This document shows, in pieces, positions 26,589-34,058 of a DNA stretch of 35,254 nucleotides. The notes beneath the pieces are model-generated. The model was not told where the DNA came from and did not search any database. It saw only the letters and a program-made list of their open reading frames with translations. Position 1 is the stretch's first letter, and every line of letters starts with the position of its first letter. The position numbers were made by a program, and so were the translations under genes. The stretch is from Synechococcus sp. UW140 (lineage in GTDB: Bacteria; Cyanobacteriota; Cyanobacteriia; PCC-6307; Cyanobiaceae): the NCBI GenBank assembly GCA_945861105.1, contig CAMASU010000001.1, positions 1 through 35,254 on the forward strand. The letters are read 5' to 3'.

Positions 26589-28001
<1,413 letters not shown>

Positions 28002-28105
28002 GGGGCGGAATCTTTTTCGGTTTGGAAGCAATCCTGGCGGGTTGCCGGGAGCATTGGTTCCCTTCCCTAGCACGGTGGTAACCCTTCGCGTCGCCACCCA
28101 GGGAG

Positions 28106-28609
28106 ATGCTGGACCACCTGCTCCCCCCGCTCAACGACCACAACCTGCCCTGGATGGACACGATCCACCCGATCGTTGTTCATTTTGTGATTGCCATGGC
28201 ACTGATCAGTGTCGTGTTTGACCTGGTAGGGGTGCTGATGCGGAAGCCTCAACTTTTTGAGGTCAGTTTCTGGAATCTGATTGTGGCCACAGTGGCCATT
28301 TTTGTCGCCATCATCTTCGGGCAGGTCGAGGCCGGTCTGGCGGATCCCTACGGGGCCTCCCGTGACATTCTCAACCTGCACAGCACCATCGGTTGGAGTC
28401 TTGCCGGGGTGCTGGGCGTGCTCACTGGCTGGCGCTATGTGGTGCGCCAGGGTGATCCCCTCAGCCTTCCCCGTGGGGTGCTGGTGCTCGATGGGGTGCT
28501 GGCCCTGCTGGTGGTCACCCAGGTCACCCTCGGGAACCAGCTGATCTGGACCTATGGCCTGCACACCGTCAAGGTCGTTGAGGCCATGAGGGCCGGGGTG
28601 CTGTCATGA
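28106..28609 (+). CDS. DUF2231 membrane protein, first of a tandem pair
   Basis: A 167-residue protein with about four hydrophobic helices and no signal peptide. Near the N-terminus is the DUF2231 signature MDTIHPIVVHFVIAMAL, with two histidines at the start of helix 1. Then come FWNLIVATVAIFVAIIFGQV and EAGLADP, NLHSTIGWSLAGVLGVLTGW, and a final helix followed by YGLHTVKVVE. The function is unknown; such proteins often flank respiratory oxidase genes in cyanobacteria. A GGGAG lies directly against the ATG at 28106, unusually close. The stop overlaps the next gene (ATGA, 28606-28609), which is a paralogue. First gene of the predicted oxidase operon. Confidence 0.87.
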   Translation: MLDHLLPPLNDHNLPWMDTIHPIVVHFVIAMALISVVFDLVGVLMRKPQLFEVSFWNLIVATVAIFVAIIFGQVEAGLADPYGASRDILNLHSTIGWSLAGVLGVLTGWRYVVRQGDPLSLPRGVLVLDGVLALLVVTQVTLGNQLIWTYGLHTVKVVEAMRAGVLS

Positions 28610-29220
28610 CCCCCGTCGCGCCGGCCCCCGCCTTGGAGATCGCCTCCTCCCTCGGGCCCAACGACCTTCCTTACGCCCTGCCGCTGCACCCCAACCTGGT
28701 GCACTTCACGATCGGCCTGTTTGCCATTGCCATCGCCTTTGATGTGGCCGGTGCCCTGTACCCCGCCGAGAAGCGGGTCTTCCGCTGGCTGGCCCTGCCA
28801 GTGACCCGCAGCGGATTCCACGATGTCGGCTGGTACAACCTGCTGGCCTGTGCCGTCGTCACCTTCTTCACGGTGGCGGCCGGCTTTTTTGAGATTCTGC
28901 TGGCAGATCCGATCCCCGGCGTTCGCAGCACCCTGGGACTGGGGGCCACTGTGACCATGCTCTGGCATGGCGTCGGTGGTGTGCTGCTGCTGCTCACCAT
29001 CGTTGCCATGACGGTGTGGCGTGGCTTTCAGCGTTTTGTCTGGCGCCGCGACTATGGCCGTCAGGTGTCCTGGTCCTATCTGGCCCTGGGGGTGGCCCTG
29101 CTGCTGGTGCTCGGGCTGCACGGCACCCTCGGCGCCGAACTGGCGGCGGAGTTCGGGGTGCACATCACCGCCGACCAGATGCTGGCCTCCGGCGTCAATC
29201 CCCGCACCGCGCTGCCCTGA
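28606..29220 (+). CDS. DUF2231 membrane protein, second of a tandem pair
   Basis: A 204-residue protein related to its neighbour: LPLHPNLVHFTIGLFAIAIAF matches the HPxxVHF signature. WYNLLACAVVTFFTVAAGFF and EILLADP match FWNLIV...EAGLADP, and WHGVGGVLLLLT matches LHSTIGWSLAGVL. About four transmembrane helices are expected. It has an N-terminal extension and a longer loop after helix 1 (YPAEKRVFRWLALPVTRSGF). Histidines near the membrane faces could bind heme or quinone, but this is speculation. The start overlaps the previous stop as ATGA, and the oxidase subunit II gene begins 9 bp after its TGA. Confidence 0.87.
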   Translation: MTPVAPAPALEIASSLGPNDLPYALPLHPNLVHFTIGLFAIAIAFDVAGALYPAEKRVFRWLALPVTRSGFHDVGWYNLLACAVVTFFTVAAGFFEILLADPIPGVRSTLGLGATVTMLWHGVGGVLLLLTIVAMTVWRGFQRFVWRRDYGRQVSWSYLALGVALLLVLGLHGTLGAELAAEFGVHITADQMLASGVNPRTALP

Positions 29221-29229
29221 GACGATCCC

Positions 29230-30174
29230 ATGACTCCGACGTTCCAACGCCCGTCGCGGCCATCTGCGATCGGCCTGCTGCTGATCGCCGCGGGCCTGCT
29301 GCTGAACCTGCTGATCAGCCTGGCCATGGCCCGCGCCTCCCATGGTTGGCTGCCGGTGCAGGCCTCCTCGGCAGCCCCCCACGTGGATGGGCTCTTCGCC
29401 CTGGAGACAGGAATCGGTACCTTCATTTTCCTGGGATGCCTGAGTGTCATCGCCTGGACGCTGCTGTTCAACCGTGCGCCCCGATACGACCTGGTCGATG
29501 GCGATCCGATTGAGGGCAATCTGCGCCTTGAGATCACCTGGACCGTCTTGCCATTTGTGCTGGTGATGCTGATCGCAGCCCATACGATCCGGGTGAATCA
29601 CACCCTTGCCACCCTGGGCGGCAAGGAGCGGGTGGCCGAGAATGGTGCAGCGCCAGCATTGACCGCCAGCGACCGTGCCGCCGGCACCAGCTTCGGACCG
29701 ATCGAGGTGATTGCCCGCCAGTGGTCATGGGAGTTTGTCTATCCGAATGGGGTGCGCAGCACCGAGCTGCATCTGCCCCTTGATCTTCGAGCCGACCTGC
29801 GGTTGACCTCCATGGATGTGCTGCACAGCTTTTATGTGCCGGCCTTCCGCCTGAAGCAGGATCTTGTGCCGGGCAGCGTCATCCGCTACGCCCTCACCCC
29901 CACCCGCGAGGGGCGTTACCGCCTGCGGGACGCCATGTTCAGCGGTGGCTACTTCGCCACCAATCAGACCGATGTGGTGGTCGAGGCCTCTGAGACCTTT
30001 GATGCCTGGCTGACTGCCGCCGCCCGTCAACCCCTGGTGGAGGCCCCCAATCTGGCGGTGGAGATGCACCGCAAACGACTGGCCGACGGCGACCACGGCT
30101 GGGCGACGGTGCCGCCGGCACCACCCCCCCGGGTGAATGTCACCACCGCTGTTGATGCTCCCCACGAGGCCTGA
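29230..30174 (+). CDS. ctaC: cytochrome c/quinol oxidase subunit II lacking CuA ligands (ARTO type)
   Basis: The 314-residue protein has two N-terminal membrane helices (about 13-35 and 60-80, with a further hydrophobic stretch at 103-119) and a periplasm/lumen-facing cupredoxin domain. RQWSWEFVYPNG (163-174) and SMDVLHSFYVPAFRLKQDLV (194-213, H199) are typical subunit II features. However, the segment where the CuA ligands C-x3-C-x3-H-x2-M should be reads YRLRDAMFSGGYFATNQ (230-246), with no cysteine. A CuA centre is therefore not possible. This is the hallmark of the cyanobacterial alternative respiratory terminal oxidase, proposed to oxidise quinol. It is followed 4 bp later by subunit I. 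Confidence 0.93.
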   Translation: MTPTFQRPSRPSAIGLLLIAAGLLLNLLISLAMARASHGWLPVQASSAAPHVDGLFALETGIGTFIFLGCLSVIAWTLLFNRAPRYDLVDGDPIEGNLRLEITWTVLPFVLVMLIAAHTIRVNHTLATLGGKERVAENGAAPALTASDRAAGTSFGPIEVIARQWSWEFVYPNGVRSTELHLPLDLRADLRLTSMDVLHSFYVPAFRLKQDLVPGSVIRYALTPTREGRYRLRDAMFSGGYFATNQTDVVVEASETFDAWLTAAARQPLVEAPNLAVEMHRKRLADGDHGWATVPPAPPPRVNVTTAVDAPHEA

Positions 30175-30178
30175 GATC

Positions 30179-31870
30179 ATGTCTGATTCCATTGTTTTTG
30201 ATCCTCGGGTCTTGCGGGCCCCCCATCCAGTCCCCGGAGCCCCCGATAACTGGAAGCGGTTTTTTGGCTTTAACACTGATGCCAAGGTGATTGGCATTCA
30301 ATATATTGTACTGTCGTTATTCTTCCTGCTAGTGGGAGGGCTGCTGGCCATGATTATCCGGGGTGAGCTGATTACGCCGCCCTCTGATCTCGTGGACCCA
30401 ACCGTCTACAACGGGCTGTATACGATGCATGGAACAGTGATGCTGTTCCTGTTCTTGTTTCCGATTCTCAATGGCTTGAACAACCTGTTGATCCCGCCGA
30501 TGATCGGGGCTCCGGACATGGCATTCCCGCGTCTGAATGCTGCCGCCTTCTGGCTTGTTCCTGTGTTTGGGGTGCTGCTGATGGCCAGCTTTTTTGTGCC
30601 TGGCGGTCCGTCATCCTCGGGCTGGTGGGCCTATCCACCCGTCAGCACCCAGAATCCGCTTGGTCATTTGGTGAATGGCCAGTTTCTATGGATTTTGGCG
30701 GTCGCTATTTCCGGCGTGTCATCGATCATGGGGGCGATCAATTTCACGACAACCATCCTGCGGATGCGAGCCCCCGGCATGACGTTCTTTCGCATGCCGA
30801 TTTTCTGCTGGACGGCGGCTGCGGCCCAGACGATTCAATTGATAGGCCTGCCTTCGTTGACCGGCGGCGCGATCATGTTGCTTTTTGACCTCAGCTTCGG
30901 CACCAGCTTTTTCAAGCCGGAGGGAGGTGGTGATCCGATGTTGTATCAACACTTCTTCTGGTTTTACTCCCATCCGGCGGTGTACGTAATGGTGCTACCG
31001 GTCTTTGGTATCTTCTCTGAGCTGCTGCCGGTTTATGCCCGCAAGCCTCTCTTCGGATACAAGGTGGTTGCCGTCGCCTCGTTCGGGATCACATTCCTGG
31101 GTTTGATCGTGTGGGTGCATCACATGTTCTACAGCGGTACCCCCCAGTGGATGCGCAACTTATTCATGGTCACCACGATGTTGATTGCGGTGCCCACAGG
31201 CATCAAGGTATTTGCCTGGTTGGGTACCCTGTGGCGTGGTAAGTTGCGGCTGGCAACGCCGATGTTGTTCTGCCTTGGTGGCATTGTCAACTTTATCTTT
31301 GCTGGTATCACGGGCGTGATGTTGGCGACAGTGCCGATTGATATTCATGTTGGCAACACCTATTTTGTGGTCGGTCACTTTCACTATGTGATCTTCTGTA
31401 CAATCACCCTTGGGGTGTTCGCTGCCATTTATCACTGGTTTCCCAAGTTCACCGGCCGCATGTACTACGAAGGGCTTGGTCAGCTGCACTTCTGGATTAC
31501 CTTCGTCGGTAGTGCTCTTAACTTCCTGCCGATGCATTGGTCTGGACTGATGGGCATGCCGCGACGGGTCGCGTCCTACGACCCTGAGTTCGCCCTTGCC
31601 AACGTGCTGGCAAGCCTTGGGGCCTTCCTGCTCGGTGTGGCCATGATCCCCTTCCTTCTGAACATGGTCAGTTCCTGGGCTCGGGGGCCCCGGGCCCCGG
31701 CCAACCCCTGGAATGCCATCGGCCTCGAATGGTTGTTGCCTTCCCCTCCACCGGCCGAAAACTTTGAGCACGACGTTCCCACGGTGATTGCCGGTCCCTA
31801 TGGCTATGGGCTTGGTGAACCACTTGTGGCAGACCAGGACCGATTCATTGCCCGCTCCGAAGAGGCCTGA
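30179..31870 (+). CDS. ctaD: heme-copper oxidase subunit I
   Basis: The 563-residue catalytic subunit has twelve or more membrane helices. Heme and copper ligands are intact: H84 (YTMHGTVML, low-spin heme), H265, H314 and H315 for CuB (FYSHPAVYVMVLP, VWVHHMFY), and H400/H402 (VVGHFHYVIF) for the high-spin and low-spin hemes. Y269 is in place for the His-Tyr link. The D-channel Asp (D113, GAPDMAFPRLN) and the K-channel Lys (K343, PTGIKVFAW) are present. The D-channel Glu of A1-type oxidases is replaced by Ala (HPAVY), with Tyr-Ser before the His, as in A2-type oxidases. The gene is visibly less GC-rich than ctaC. The ATG at 30179 is chosen over a GTG at 30137 inside ctaC. Confidence 0.96.
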   Translation: MSDSIVFDPRVLRAPHPVPGAPDNWKRFFGFNTDAKVIGIQYIVLSLFFLLVGGLLAMIIRGELITPPSDLVDPTVYNGLYTMHGTVMLFLFLFPILNGLNNLLIPPMIGAPDMAFPRLNAAAFWLVPVFGVLLMASFFVPGGPSSSGWWAYPPVSTQNPLGHLVNGQFLWILAVAISGVSSIMGAINFTTTILRMRAPGMTFFRMPIFCWTAAAAQTIQLIGLPSLTGGAIMLLFDLSFGTSFFKPEGGGDPMLYQHFFWFYSHPAVYVMVLPVFGIFSELLPVYARKPLFGYKVVAVASFGITFLGLIVWVHHMFYSGTPQWMRNLFMVTTMLIAVPTGIKVFAWLGTLWRGKLRLATPMLFCLGGIVNFIFAGITGVMLATVPIDIHVGNTYFVVGHFHYVIFCTITLGVFAAIYHWFPKFTGRMYYEGLGQLHFWITFVGSALNFLPMHWSGLMGMPRRVASYDPEFALANVLASLGAFLLGVAMIPFLLNMVSSWARGPRAPANPWNAIGLEWLLPSPPPAENFEHDVPTVIAGPYGYGLGEPLVADQDRFIARSEEA

Positions 31871-31874
31871 ACCG

Positions 31875-32471
31875 ATGACCACCGCCCATCCCCCCGCATC
31901 TGCCCCCGCTGCCGAGCATTCGCATGGTGGCTACAATCTGACAGGATTTATCATCTTTCTGTGCTCTGAAAGCATCATCTTCCTGGCATTCTTTGCGGGT
32001 TTTACTGTTCTCAAGCTAAGCTCCCCTGTCTGGTTGCCCGAGGGCGTCGAGGGGCTTGAGGTGCGCATGCCCTTCATTAACACTGTCATTCTTGTCAGCA
32101 GTAGCTTTGTGGCCGTTCTGGCGGAGAAAGCCCTGCACCGCCGTGCCCTCTGGAGCTTCAGGGGATGGTGGTTGCTGACCATGCTGATGGGGGCCTATTT
32201 TGTCTATGGGCAGTATGTCGAATGGTCTGAACTGGCCTTTGGTCTTGGTAGCGGTGTGTTTGGCTCCACTTTCTATTTGCTGACCGGTTTTCATGGTCTG
32301 CATGTCATCACTGGCATCCTGCTCATGGGGCTGATGCTGCTGCGCTCATTTCGGCCAGGTAACTACAACGGTGGCGAGGCTGGCGTGGCATCAGTCTCGT
32401 TGTTCTGGCACTTTGTGGATGTGATCTGGATCATTCTGTTCCTGCTCATCTACGTCTGGCAGAGACACTGA
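31875..32471 (+). CDS. ctaE: heme-copper oxidase subunit III
   Basis: A 198-residue membrane protein with five helices and the subunit III pattern: YNLTGFIIFLCSESIIFLAF (SE on helix 1), MPFINTVILVSSSFVAVLAE, FGSTFYLLTGFHGLHVITGI and SLFWHFVDVIWIILFLLIYVW (split by position: SVSLFWHFVDVIWIILF then LLIYVW). The conserved Glu and the FHGxHV and WHFVD motifs are present. It starts 4 bp after ctaD (ATG at 31875; an open extension lies inside ctaD) and completes the C-D-E set. Subunit III stabilises the enzyme and its proton uptake. Base composition resembles ctaD rather than the flanking genes. Confidence 0.95.
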   Translation: MTTAHPPASAPAAEHSHGGYNLTGFIIFLCSESIIFLAFFAGFTVLKLSSPVWLPEGVEGLEVRMPFINTVILVSSSFVAVLAEKALHRRALWSFRGWWLLTMLMGAYFVYGQYVEWSELAFGLGSGVFGSTFYLLTGFHGLHVITGILLMGLMLLRSFRPGNYNGGEAGVASVSLFWHFVDVIWIILFLLIYVWQRH

Positions 32472-32537: not shown

Positions 32538-34058
32538 ATGATCATCGACGACACCCATTACGACGTCATTATCATCGGCAGTGGTGCTGCCGGGGGAACG
32601 CTGGCTGGCCGGCTTGCGGGCCGTGGTCGCCGGGTGCTTCTGCTCGAACGAGGAGGCCAGTTGCCCCTGGTGGACCAGAACGTCGCCGACGTCGACCTGT
32701 TTCGCAAGGATCGTTATCACCCAGCCCGGGAGACCTGGATGGGCCCCGATGCTGATCCCTTTGCCCCCCAGGCCATCTACGCCCTGGGGGGCAACAGCAA
32801 GATCTGGGGCGGGGTGCTTGAGCGTCTGCGGGAGGGTGACTTCCAGGAGCATCCGCTGCAGGAAGGCACCGCCCCCGCCTGGCCCTTGAGCTACCAGGAT
32901 CTGGCCCCTTGGTACGACGCTGCCGAGCAGCTCTATCGCGTGCATGGCGCTGCAGGTGCCGATCCCACCGAGCCCCCCCGCCAGGGGGCCTACGCCCAGG
33001 CCCCGCGTCCCATCGAACCCTTCCTCACCCCGGTGGGCGAGGCCCTCGAGCGGGCAGGTTGTCATCCCTACCGGTTGCCGATCAGCTGGTCAGATCAGGC
33101 CGAAGACCCCAGCGGCGATGCCGAGGTGTTCGGTGTCACCGCTGCGGTGGCCGATCCGCAACTGCAATTGCAGACCGATGCCATCGTCACGCGGCTGCAT
33201 GTGAATCCGGCTGGCACCAGGGTCAGCGGTGTTCAGGCCAGCGTGCGGGGTCAGGAGTGGCTGTTCCGTGGAGATCAGATCGTGCTGGCCGCCGGTGCCG
33301 TCAACACCGCGGCTCTGCTGTTGCGGTCCGTCAGCGATCGCCATCCCCGCGGCCTGGGCAATGGCTCCGATCTGGTGGGCCGCCATCTGATGCGCCCGCA
33401 GCTGACGTCGATCCTGCAGCTCACCGCGGTGGCCAACTCGGGACGGTATGGCCGCAGCTGGGCGGTCAATGACTACTACTGGGGCGATCGCAACGTCAGC
33501 TATCCCCTCGGCCAGGTGCGCTCGGCCGGTGGGGTGCTCCAGGATCCGCTGTTTGCCGAGTCGCCGCCGGTGCTGTCGCTGGTGACCCGGCTGCTGCCCG
33601 GTTTCGGCCTCGACCAGCTGGCCTCCCGGTCGCTGGCCTGGTGGGCCAGCACCCCCGTCGCCCCTGATCGACACAACAAGGTGTGGCTCAATGGCGAACG
33701 CCTGCATATCAACTATCTGGCGAACAACCGCGAGGCTCACGACCGCCTCGTCTACCGCTGGCTCGACACCCTCAAGGCGGTGGAGGCTGATCCGCTCGTA
33801 CACGTGCTGCAGTCTGCACCGGTGCATCCCCGCGGGGAGGCGCCGATCCAGGTGATGGGTTACGCCTGCGGCACCTGCCGCATGGGCGATGATCCGACCA
33901 CGTCGGTGGTTGACAGCAGCGGCCGTTGCCATGAATTGGAGAATCTCTACGTCGCCGATGCCAGCGTTTTTCCCAGTTGTCCTGCGGTGGGGCCGGGGCT
34001 GACCGTCATCGCTCTTGCCCTGCGTCTGAGCGACCACCTTGCCGGGGCCACGTCATGA
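32538..34058 (+). CDS. GMC-family FAD-dependent oxidoreductase
   Basis: A 506-residue flavoprotein. YDVIIIGSGAAGGTLAGRLA (8-27) is the dinucleotide-binding Gly-box, E37 ends the second strand, ALGGNSKIWGGVLERL is the FAD-contact loop, and QIVLAAGAVNTAALLL is the second FAD motif. The C-terminal GMC block is YACGTCRMGDDPTTSVVDSS, then NLYVADASVFPSCPAVGPGL. At the position of the usual catalytic His before GTC there is Tyr442. In the second active-site position (usually His or Asn, as in VNPxLT) there is Gly485. Substrate unknown; it resembles sugar or alcohol dehydrogenases. There is no signal peptide. It starts 66 bp after ctaE and overlaps the next gene (ATGA). Confidence 0.88.
   Translation: MIIDDTHYDVIIIGSGAAGGTLAGRLAGRGRRVLLLERGGQLPLVDQNVADVDLFRKDRYHPARETWMGPDADPFAPQAIYALGGNSKIWGGVLERLREGDFQEHPLQEGTAPAWPLSYQDLAPWYDAAEQLYRVHGAAGADPTEPPRQGAYAQAPRPIEPFLTPVGEALERAGCHPYRLPISWSDQAEDPSGDAEVFGVTAAVADPQLQLQTDAIVTRLHVNPAGTRVSGVQASVRGQEWLFRGDQIVLAAGAVNTAALLLRSVSDRHPRGLGNGSDLVGRHLMRPQLTSILQLTAVANSGRYGRSWAVNDYYWGDRNVSYPLGQVRSAGGVLQDPLFAESPPVLSLVTRLLPGFGLDQLASRSLAWWASTPVAPDRHNKVWLNGERLHINYLANNREAHDRLVYRWLDTLKAVEADPLVHVLQSAPVHPRGEAPIQVMGYACGTCRMGDDPTTSVVDSSGRCHELENLYVADASVFPSCPAVGPGLTVIALALRLSDHLAGATS

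Follow-up and report, generated by a model that had tools for sequence, protein, structure and literature searches.

We analysed a 35,254-nucleotide stretch of DNA from Synechococcus sp. UW140 (assembly GCA_945861105.1, contig CAMASU010000001.1, positions 1 to 35,254), hereafter the window, in which two short membrane-protein genes head an operon with ctaC2, ctaD2 and ctaE2, the genes for ARTO, an alternative oxidase of cyanobacteria. The two genes, DUF2231-A (28106–28609, 167 amino acids) and DUF2231-B (28606–29220, 204 amino acids), referred to below as A and B, lie on the forward strand, and each encodes a protein with four transmembrane helices in AlphaFold2 (AF2) models. Both were present as the preliminary description of this DNA had stated, with an ATGA overlap at 28606–28609. 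They are followed on the same strand by ctaC2 (29230–30174), encoding an oxidase subunit II without the CxExC motif of CuA; ctaD2 (30179–31870), encoding a subunit I that retains the metal-ligand histidines and lacks the quinol-site residues of bo3 oxidase; and ctaE2 (31875–32471), encoding subunit III. The listed frames of ctaD2 and ctaE2 open earlier, at 30137 and 31788, and the likely ctaD2 start is the methionine at 30179, after the end of ctaC2. The operon ends with a gene for a GMC-family flavin oxidoreductase (32538–34058, forward strand), which is kept in the relatives of the window and in some other genomes.

Upstream of A, fumC (26589–28097 as listed) is encoded on the opposite strand. 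Its listed start is 8 bp from A, while an in-frame methionine near 28001 leaves 104 bp and is the more likely start. The divergent intergenic region thus defined (28002–28105, no strand) presumably holds the operon promoter; a promoter scan found no sigma-70-like site within it, and promoter and terminator scans gave results near chance level. The draft genome from which the window comes (76% complete) has exactly two DUF2231 matches, namely A and B.

That two unnamed reading frames belong to this operon is already published for Anabaena and is not new. The ARTO (Qox, Cox3) operon of Anabaena sp. PCC 7120 has, by its published description, two membrane ORFs followed by subunits II, I and III, and the arrangement alr2729-alr2730-coxB3-coxA3-coxC3 is given in the accessible text of PMC6616624. 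The corresponding text of PMC4390870 and PMC7065334 calls alr2729 and alr2730 "hypothetical" or "putative membrane" proteins, co-regulated with the cox3 genes. Neither ORF is given a function, a cofactor or an analysis of its residues in these texts. Compared with Anabaena, the Synechococcus/Cyanobium-type operon of the window adds the GMC oxidoreductase.

Linkage of the DUF2231 pair to ARTO

We assessed how closely the pair follows the oxidase across 292 genomes of the phylum, 91 of which had a DUF2231 match and 151 of which matched the CtaC of the window. CtaC2 was defined by a score of 184 bits or more, separated by a gap from ordinary CtaC (~150 bits or less); one partial 141-bit hit was added, its genome having a full hit as well. 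This gave 79 places outside the window and 70 genomes including that of the window. At least two DUF2231 genes were found in all CtaC2 genomes (70/70) compared with 3/222 of the others (Fisher's test ignoring shared ancestry, P = 1.6e-64). Two of these three have the pair beside a cbb3 oxidase, and the third (G062) has a tandem of the solitary type.

At 75 of the 79 loci, A and B lay on the same strand immediately upstream of CtaC2. One exception (L130) is a CtaC2-D2-E2 cluster without an adjacent pair that represents the second CtaC2 of its genome, G060; elsewhere that genome has another A-B pair, with CtaC2 beside it. The other exceptions (L136, L138 and L140) belong to a single genus: in each of these three genomes CtaC2 is on its own and the two DUF2231 genes stand together at another place (L142–L144). 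At L073, tblastn showed A, B, CtaD and CtaE and not CtaC, and CtaC2 was placed there by the CtaC search. Within a collection of named genomes, A and B occurred together at 79 of 80 loci, with the remaining contig stopping just after A; these loci include a record titled Prochlorococcus HNLC1. An oxidase gene was not found at two of the 80, L214, which is on a short contig, and L225, which is not. A cyanobacterial ARTO operon was also present in a record titled as a Bifidobacterium breve metagenome-assembled genome (L174, CALPNT020000109.1), the label of which looks wrong.

We regard the association between A-B and ARTO as established: the pair belongs permanently to the ARTO system, and its link to this CuA-less oxidase is near-obligate in the genomes compared. 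The suggestion that the two proteins make up an additional membrane module associated with the oxidase has strong support from phylogeny and from the conserved synteny.

Sequence conservation and phylogeny

Both proteins match Pfam DUF2231 (PF09990) well above its cut-off of 26.4 bits (A, 119.2 bits; B, 131.2 bits), and show four transmembrane helices in AF2 models, with one histidine where helix 1 begins and another within helix 3. A search of NCBIfam yielded no informative name for either protein. The motifs attributed to both in the preliminary description are real: HPIVVHF in one and HPNLVHF in the other, the WNL/YNL...G..E..LADP block and a histidine in helix 3. The proposed origin by duplication is also strongly supported, as A and B align by BLASTP with E = 4e-12 (28% identity over 183 columns) and form one clade.

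Conservation was assessed among 79 homologues each of A and of B, encoded beside CtaC2 or as displaced pairs. The anticipated conservation of histidines and acidic residues was borne out at five positions in each protein, with H21, H26, E75, H92 and H153 of A and H28, H33, E96, H121 and H186 of B present in 79/79. Also invariant (79/79) were E52, W56, W97, W109, R110 and W148 of A and D46, W76, W138, R139, R143 and Y158 of B, and H172 of B was found in 76/79. Alignments mixing A and B yielded a common set, in A numbering, of H21, H26, D39, N57, E75, H92, W109, R110/R114 and H153. Judged from these alignments, such conservation is far beyond chance. A and B had mean pairwise identities of 0.656 and 0.628, respectively, values that lie between those of CtaC2 (0.528) and CtaD2 (0.732), and the ATGA overlap was seen again in 56 of 78 A-B pairs.

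A tree of 71 rows, comprising 21 of the 78 ORF pairs, the window pair, three cbb3-linked pairs, one NDH-2-linked pair and 19 other DUF2231 proteins, resolved A (support 90/84) and B (100/98) as one clade each and united them in a single clade (100/96) separate from the other DUF2231 proteins. The cbb3-linked members fell near the base of both the A and B clades. H21 and H92 were present in all 71 rows, a count that holds for that row set only, and E or D occupied position 75 in 70 of 71. The tree did not include four alphaproteobacterial sequences (Novosphingobium, R. leguminosarum, Aurantiacibacter and Bradyrhizobium sp. 183), in some of which motif histidines have been lost, or four from non-photosynthetic organisms (L238, L240, L242 and L243). 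H26 was found in 52/52 A and B rows versus 3/19 of the other DUF2231 rows, and H153 in 52/52 versus 0/19, these two histidines being largely specific to the A-B clade. Solitary DUF2231 proteins, whether of the cyanobacterial GHPxHP type or proteobacterial, share the family, H21, H92 and E/D75 with A and B, but fall outside the A-B clade, lack H153 and mostly lack H26.

Predicted structure and topology

The AF2 monomer model of A (pLDDT 84.7, pTM 0.78) contained helices at residues 20–44, 50–79, 83–116 and 123–150; that of B had a pLDDT of 78.6 and a pTM of 0.73. The side bearing the conserved histidines and glutamate was poorer in lysine and arginine in 78/79 homologues of A and 79/79 of B, and that side is therefore probably periplasmic or lumenal. 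On a helical wheel, H21, D39, N57, E75, H92 and R110 shared the conserved face, while H26 lay opposite; the helical moments were weak (0.13–0.38).

Neither model had a Foldseek match with E ≤ 0.001. VIA-align gave similar Z scores (~10–13) to designed bundles, CyoC/COX3, cytochrome b561, bd oxidase and unrelated FAT domains. These matches are generic four-helix bundles that do not discriminate, constituting neither support for heme nor a sign of a new fold. A sequence search against solved structures returned nothing for A and chance-level matches only for B (E 0.36 or worse). Cytochrome b561-type diheme proteins have two bis-histidine heme sites, one near each membrane face. Chains of b561 were among the generic-bundle matches (Z ~10). 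The conserved histidines of A and B lie on one predicted side of the membrane, and we therefore set aside a b561-like two-sided heme pair as apparently unlikely.

Electron-entry sites of the oxidase

The CxExC motif of CuA was found in none of 78 CtaC2 ORFs, the one at L073 among the 79 loci not having been extracted. We compared CtaD2 with CyoB of E. coli K-12 using 67 of 73 CtaD ORFs, after dropping six short pieces, together with that of the window. H106, H284, H333, H334, H419 and H421 (CyoB numbering) were kept in 68/68 sequences. R71, D75, H98 and Q101, which we take to be the quinol-site residues of bo3, were all changed in 68/68, with replacements of R71 by V, I, F or L, of D75 by F, L or M, of H98 by V, L or F, and of Q101 by G, A, S or V. 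The oxidase thus has the features of ARTO, a subunit II without CuA ligands and a subunit I with heme-copper oxidase metal ligands, and the replaced residues separate it from bo3-type quinol oxidases (Cyo/Qox).

The oxidase resembles E. coli bo3 (CyoABCD) in that the six compared histidine ligands are kept and CtaC2, like CyoA, is without CuA, but differs in the replacement of all four quinol-site residues and in the two DUF2231 proteins encoded in place of CyoD. The neighbouring oxidase had been called "quinol-type"; the implied lack of CuA held, whereas with the bo3 quinol-site residues missing the type is not established by sequence. With both the CuA motif and these residues missing, ARTO shows neither of the known routes by which electrons enter. 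In the accessible text of PMC6616624, ARTO is presented as a bo3-like quinol oxidase, and whether these oxidases have further subunits is said to be unclear.

Other gene contexts

Among the loci inspected for contexts beyond the ARTO operon, 30 were selected for their similarity to a cbb3-linked A, a set biased toward odd contexts. Four genomes (G036, G111, G308 and G388) had the order CcoN-CcoO-A-B, followed in three by a gene for a type-II NADH dehydrogenase (NDH-2); in G036 and G111, the genes ahead of the pair encode CcoN and a c-heme CcoO, and NDH-2 comes after it. This S. elongatus-like cbb3 operon resembles the ARTO operon in carrying the same DUF2231-A/B pair, with NDH-2 next, and differs in encoding a C-type oxidase with a c-heme subunit. 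The cbb3-linked B proteins (L251, L252, L309 and L312) have ~100 extra C-terminal residues, an extension without a Pfam match in L251 and L252, and the A proteins of G036 and G111 have HA rather than HP at H21. The cbb3 genes of PCC 7942 are mentioned in the accessible text of PMC13208690, where their function in cyanobacteria is considered unclear.

NDH-2 was encoded in 16 of 83 fetched stretches. One locus (L304) has A-B-NDH2-CtaC2-D2-E2 on a single strand, and a Fischerella plasmid carries protoheme farnesyltransferase (heme O synthase)-ndbC-A-B-CtaC2-ctaDII-ctaEII, with A and B annotated as hypothetical proteins. Two Nostocaceae plasmids have A-B-C-D-E-GMC-cydAB; there (L226 and L315), a BlaI/CopY-type regulator and an M56 peptidase are encoded upstream of the ARTO operon, with GMC and cydAB downstream. 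Some pairs accompany NDH-2 among glycogen and stress genes with no oxidase nearby. Three such pairs (L302, L303 and L308), near which no oxidase was found, lie with NDH-2 in islands containing glycogen, sucrose or glucan enzymes, a CLC channel or two-component genes. A pair on a Gloeothece plasmid had neither an oxidase gene nor NDH-2 nearby. At L310 (G368 contig 244), A-B is followed directly by CtaD, and CtaC and CtaE were not detected.

Among 15 non-cyanobacterial plasmid DUF2231 loci inspected, four were in oxidase clusters, six preceded a sorbosone dehydrogenase gene and five (Azospirillum, Sinorhizobium, Microvirga, Pelagibacterium and Rhizobium BG4) were in neither setting; two distant DUF2231 queries gave no matches in plasmids. 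CopD and an oxidase assembly protein accompany the single DUF2231 in the oxidase clusters of Alteromonas, Sulfitobacter, Pararhizobium and Paracoccus. Subunit II lacked CxExC in three of these four clusters and kept it in Alteromonas. In the three (L262, L263 and L265, from Sulfitobacter, Pararhizobium and Paracoccus plasmids), a long ctaD product (~820–840 amino acids) is encoded beside DUF2231, CopD and the assembly protein, and SAEYNG or SAEFSG stands where CxExC would be; they possibly represent a second family of CuA-less oxidases. Of the six loci with sorbosone dehydrogenase, that of Mesorhizobium adjoins oxidase subunit genes, and that of Aurantiacibacter has a COX1 gene a few kilobases off.

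Discussion

Electron entry from quinol is the best-supported role for A and B, because the oxidase is missing both CuA and a bo3-type quinol site and both paralogues have a conserved outer-side His/Glu site. As a candidate function, to which we assign a probability of about 0.45, A-B would be a portable, quinol-oxidising electron-entry module, chiefly for ARTO. That A and B might bind heme, metal or quinone, as previously suggested, is plausible, given that the residues never vary and occupy a single side of the membrane. We envisage that the two proteins are duplicated four-helix subunits of a membrane module serving cyanobacterial heme-copper oxidases. This module would oxidise plastoquinol, itself supplied in reduced form by NDH-2 or other flavin dehydrogenases. 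A P-side site may be made of H21, E/D75 and H92 in each subunit, and the pair-specific H26 and H153 could then form the rest of a b-heme (or metal) site, perhaps where A and B meet. From there, electrons would reach the low-spin heme in CtaD2 or, in cbb3 operons, the c heme of CcoO, and protons would be released to the P side; the module would thereby stand in for CuA as well as for the bo3-type quinol site.

Several patterns are consistent with electron entry through A-B: near-obligate ARTO linkage together with reuse beside a different oxidase class (cbb3), NDH-2 as a probable quinone-side partner, invariant His/Glu positions in proteins more conserved than CtaC2, and the CxExC-less subunit II in three of four proteobacterial clusters with a single DUF2231. 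Others argue against it, including H26 on the face opposite H21, E75 and H92 (with weak moments), the L130 cluster without an adjacent pair, the separation of CtaC2 and pair in three genomes of one genus, pairs with NDH-2 but no nearby oxidase, the plasmid pair with neither, and the one proteobacterial cluster that keeps CuA. It is also possible that a non-canonical quinol site lies inside CtaD2.

We considered it unlikely that A-B is instead a dedicated assembly or copper-insertion factor whose histidines on the outer side bind copper and pass it on to CuB in CtaD2. The histidine-rich P-side site, the occurrence with two oxidase classes that have CuB in common, and the proximity of proteobacterial DUF2231 to CopD and a cytochrome oxidase assembly protein in four clusters would all fit such a factor. 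However, ordinary CuA-type oxidases also need CuB, yet only 3/222 genomes without CtaC2 have two DUF2231 genes; there is no cysteine in the conserved set, and copper delivery has no obvious use in NDH-2 pairs without a nearby oxidase or in DUF2231-sorbosone dehydrogenase pairs. A general CuB factor was put aside, the pair being mostly missing from genomes without CtaC2. Structural accessory subunits of ARTO without a cofactor, like CyoD or other small oxidase subunits, would account for the tight synteny and the short overlapping genes, and the four-helix models fit oxidase subunit III no worse than any other match; such a role is nonetheless rather improbable, as it would not be expected to preserve five His/Glu positions in each protein of an anciently duplicated pair, or to place that pair beside cbb3 oxidases and in NDH-2 operons. 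A ferric reductase module passing electrons to periplasmic Fe(III) is very unlikely: it would explain the impaired Fe reduction and uptake of Synechocystis with ctaD2 and ctaE2 inactivated (described in the accessible text of PMC10119275 and PMC7676907) and fits the probably periplasmic histidine side and the pair in the record titled Prochlorococcus HNLC1, but that phenotype came from removing the oxidase rather than A-B, no iron-uptake gene was seen adjacent across loci, and the NDH-2 and cbb3 contexts fit respiration.

Extending the electron-entry reading, A-B might plug into both A-type (ARTO) and C-type (cbb3) oxidases without CuA or a bo3-type quinol site, form minimal NADH-to-oxygen chains with NDH-2 and be the electron outlet of ARTO-dependent iron reduction, a combination that we regard as doubtful when taken as a whole. 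ARTO has been linked to the way in which ocean phytoplankton acquire iron, and it also counts among the oxidases of heterocysts. Within the open PMC literature searched, subscription papers being outside its scope, DUF2231, PF09990, COG4244 and IPR019251 are almost unnamed, no function is assigned to DUF2231, and no match was found for DUF2231 together with cyanobacteria. Based on the comparisons made here, A and B are good candidates for the electron entry point of ARTO; the pair supplies named genes and conserved residues with which electron entry into ARTO becomes directly testable, and offers a possible function for the widespread family DUF2231.
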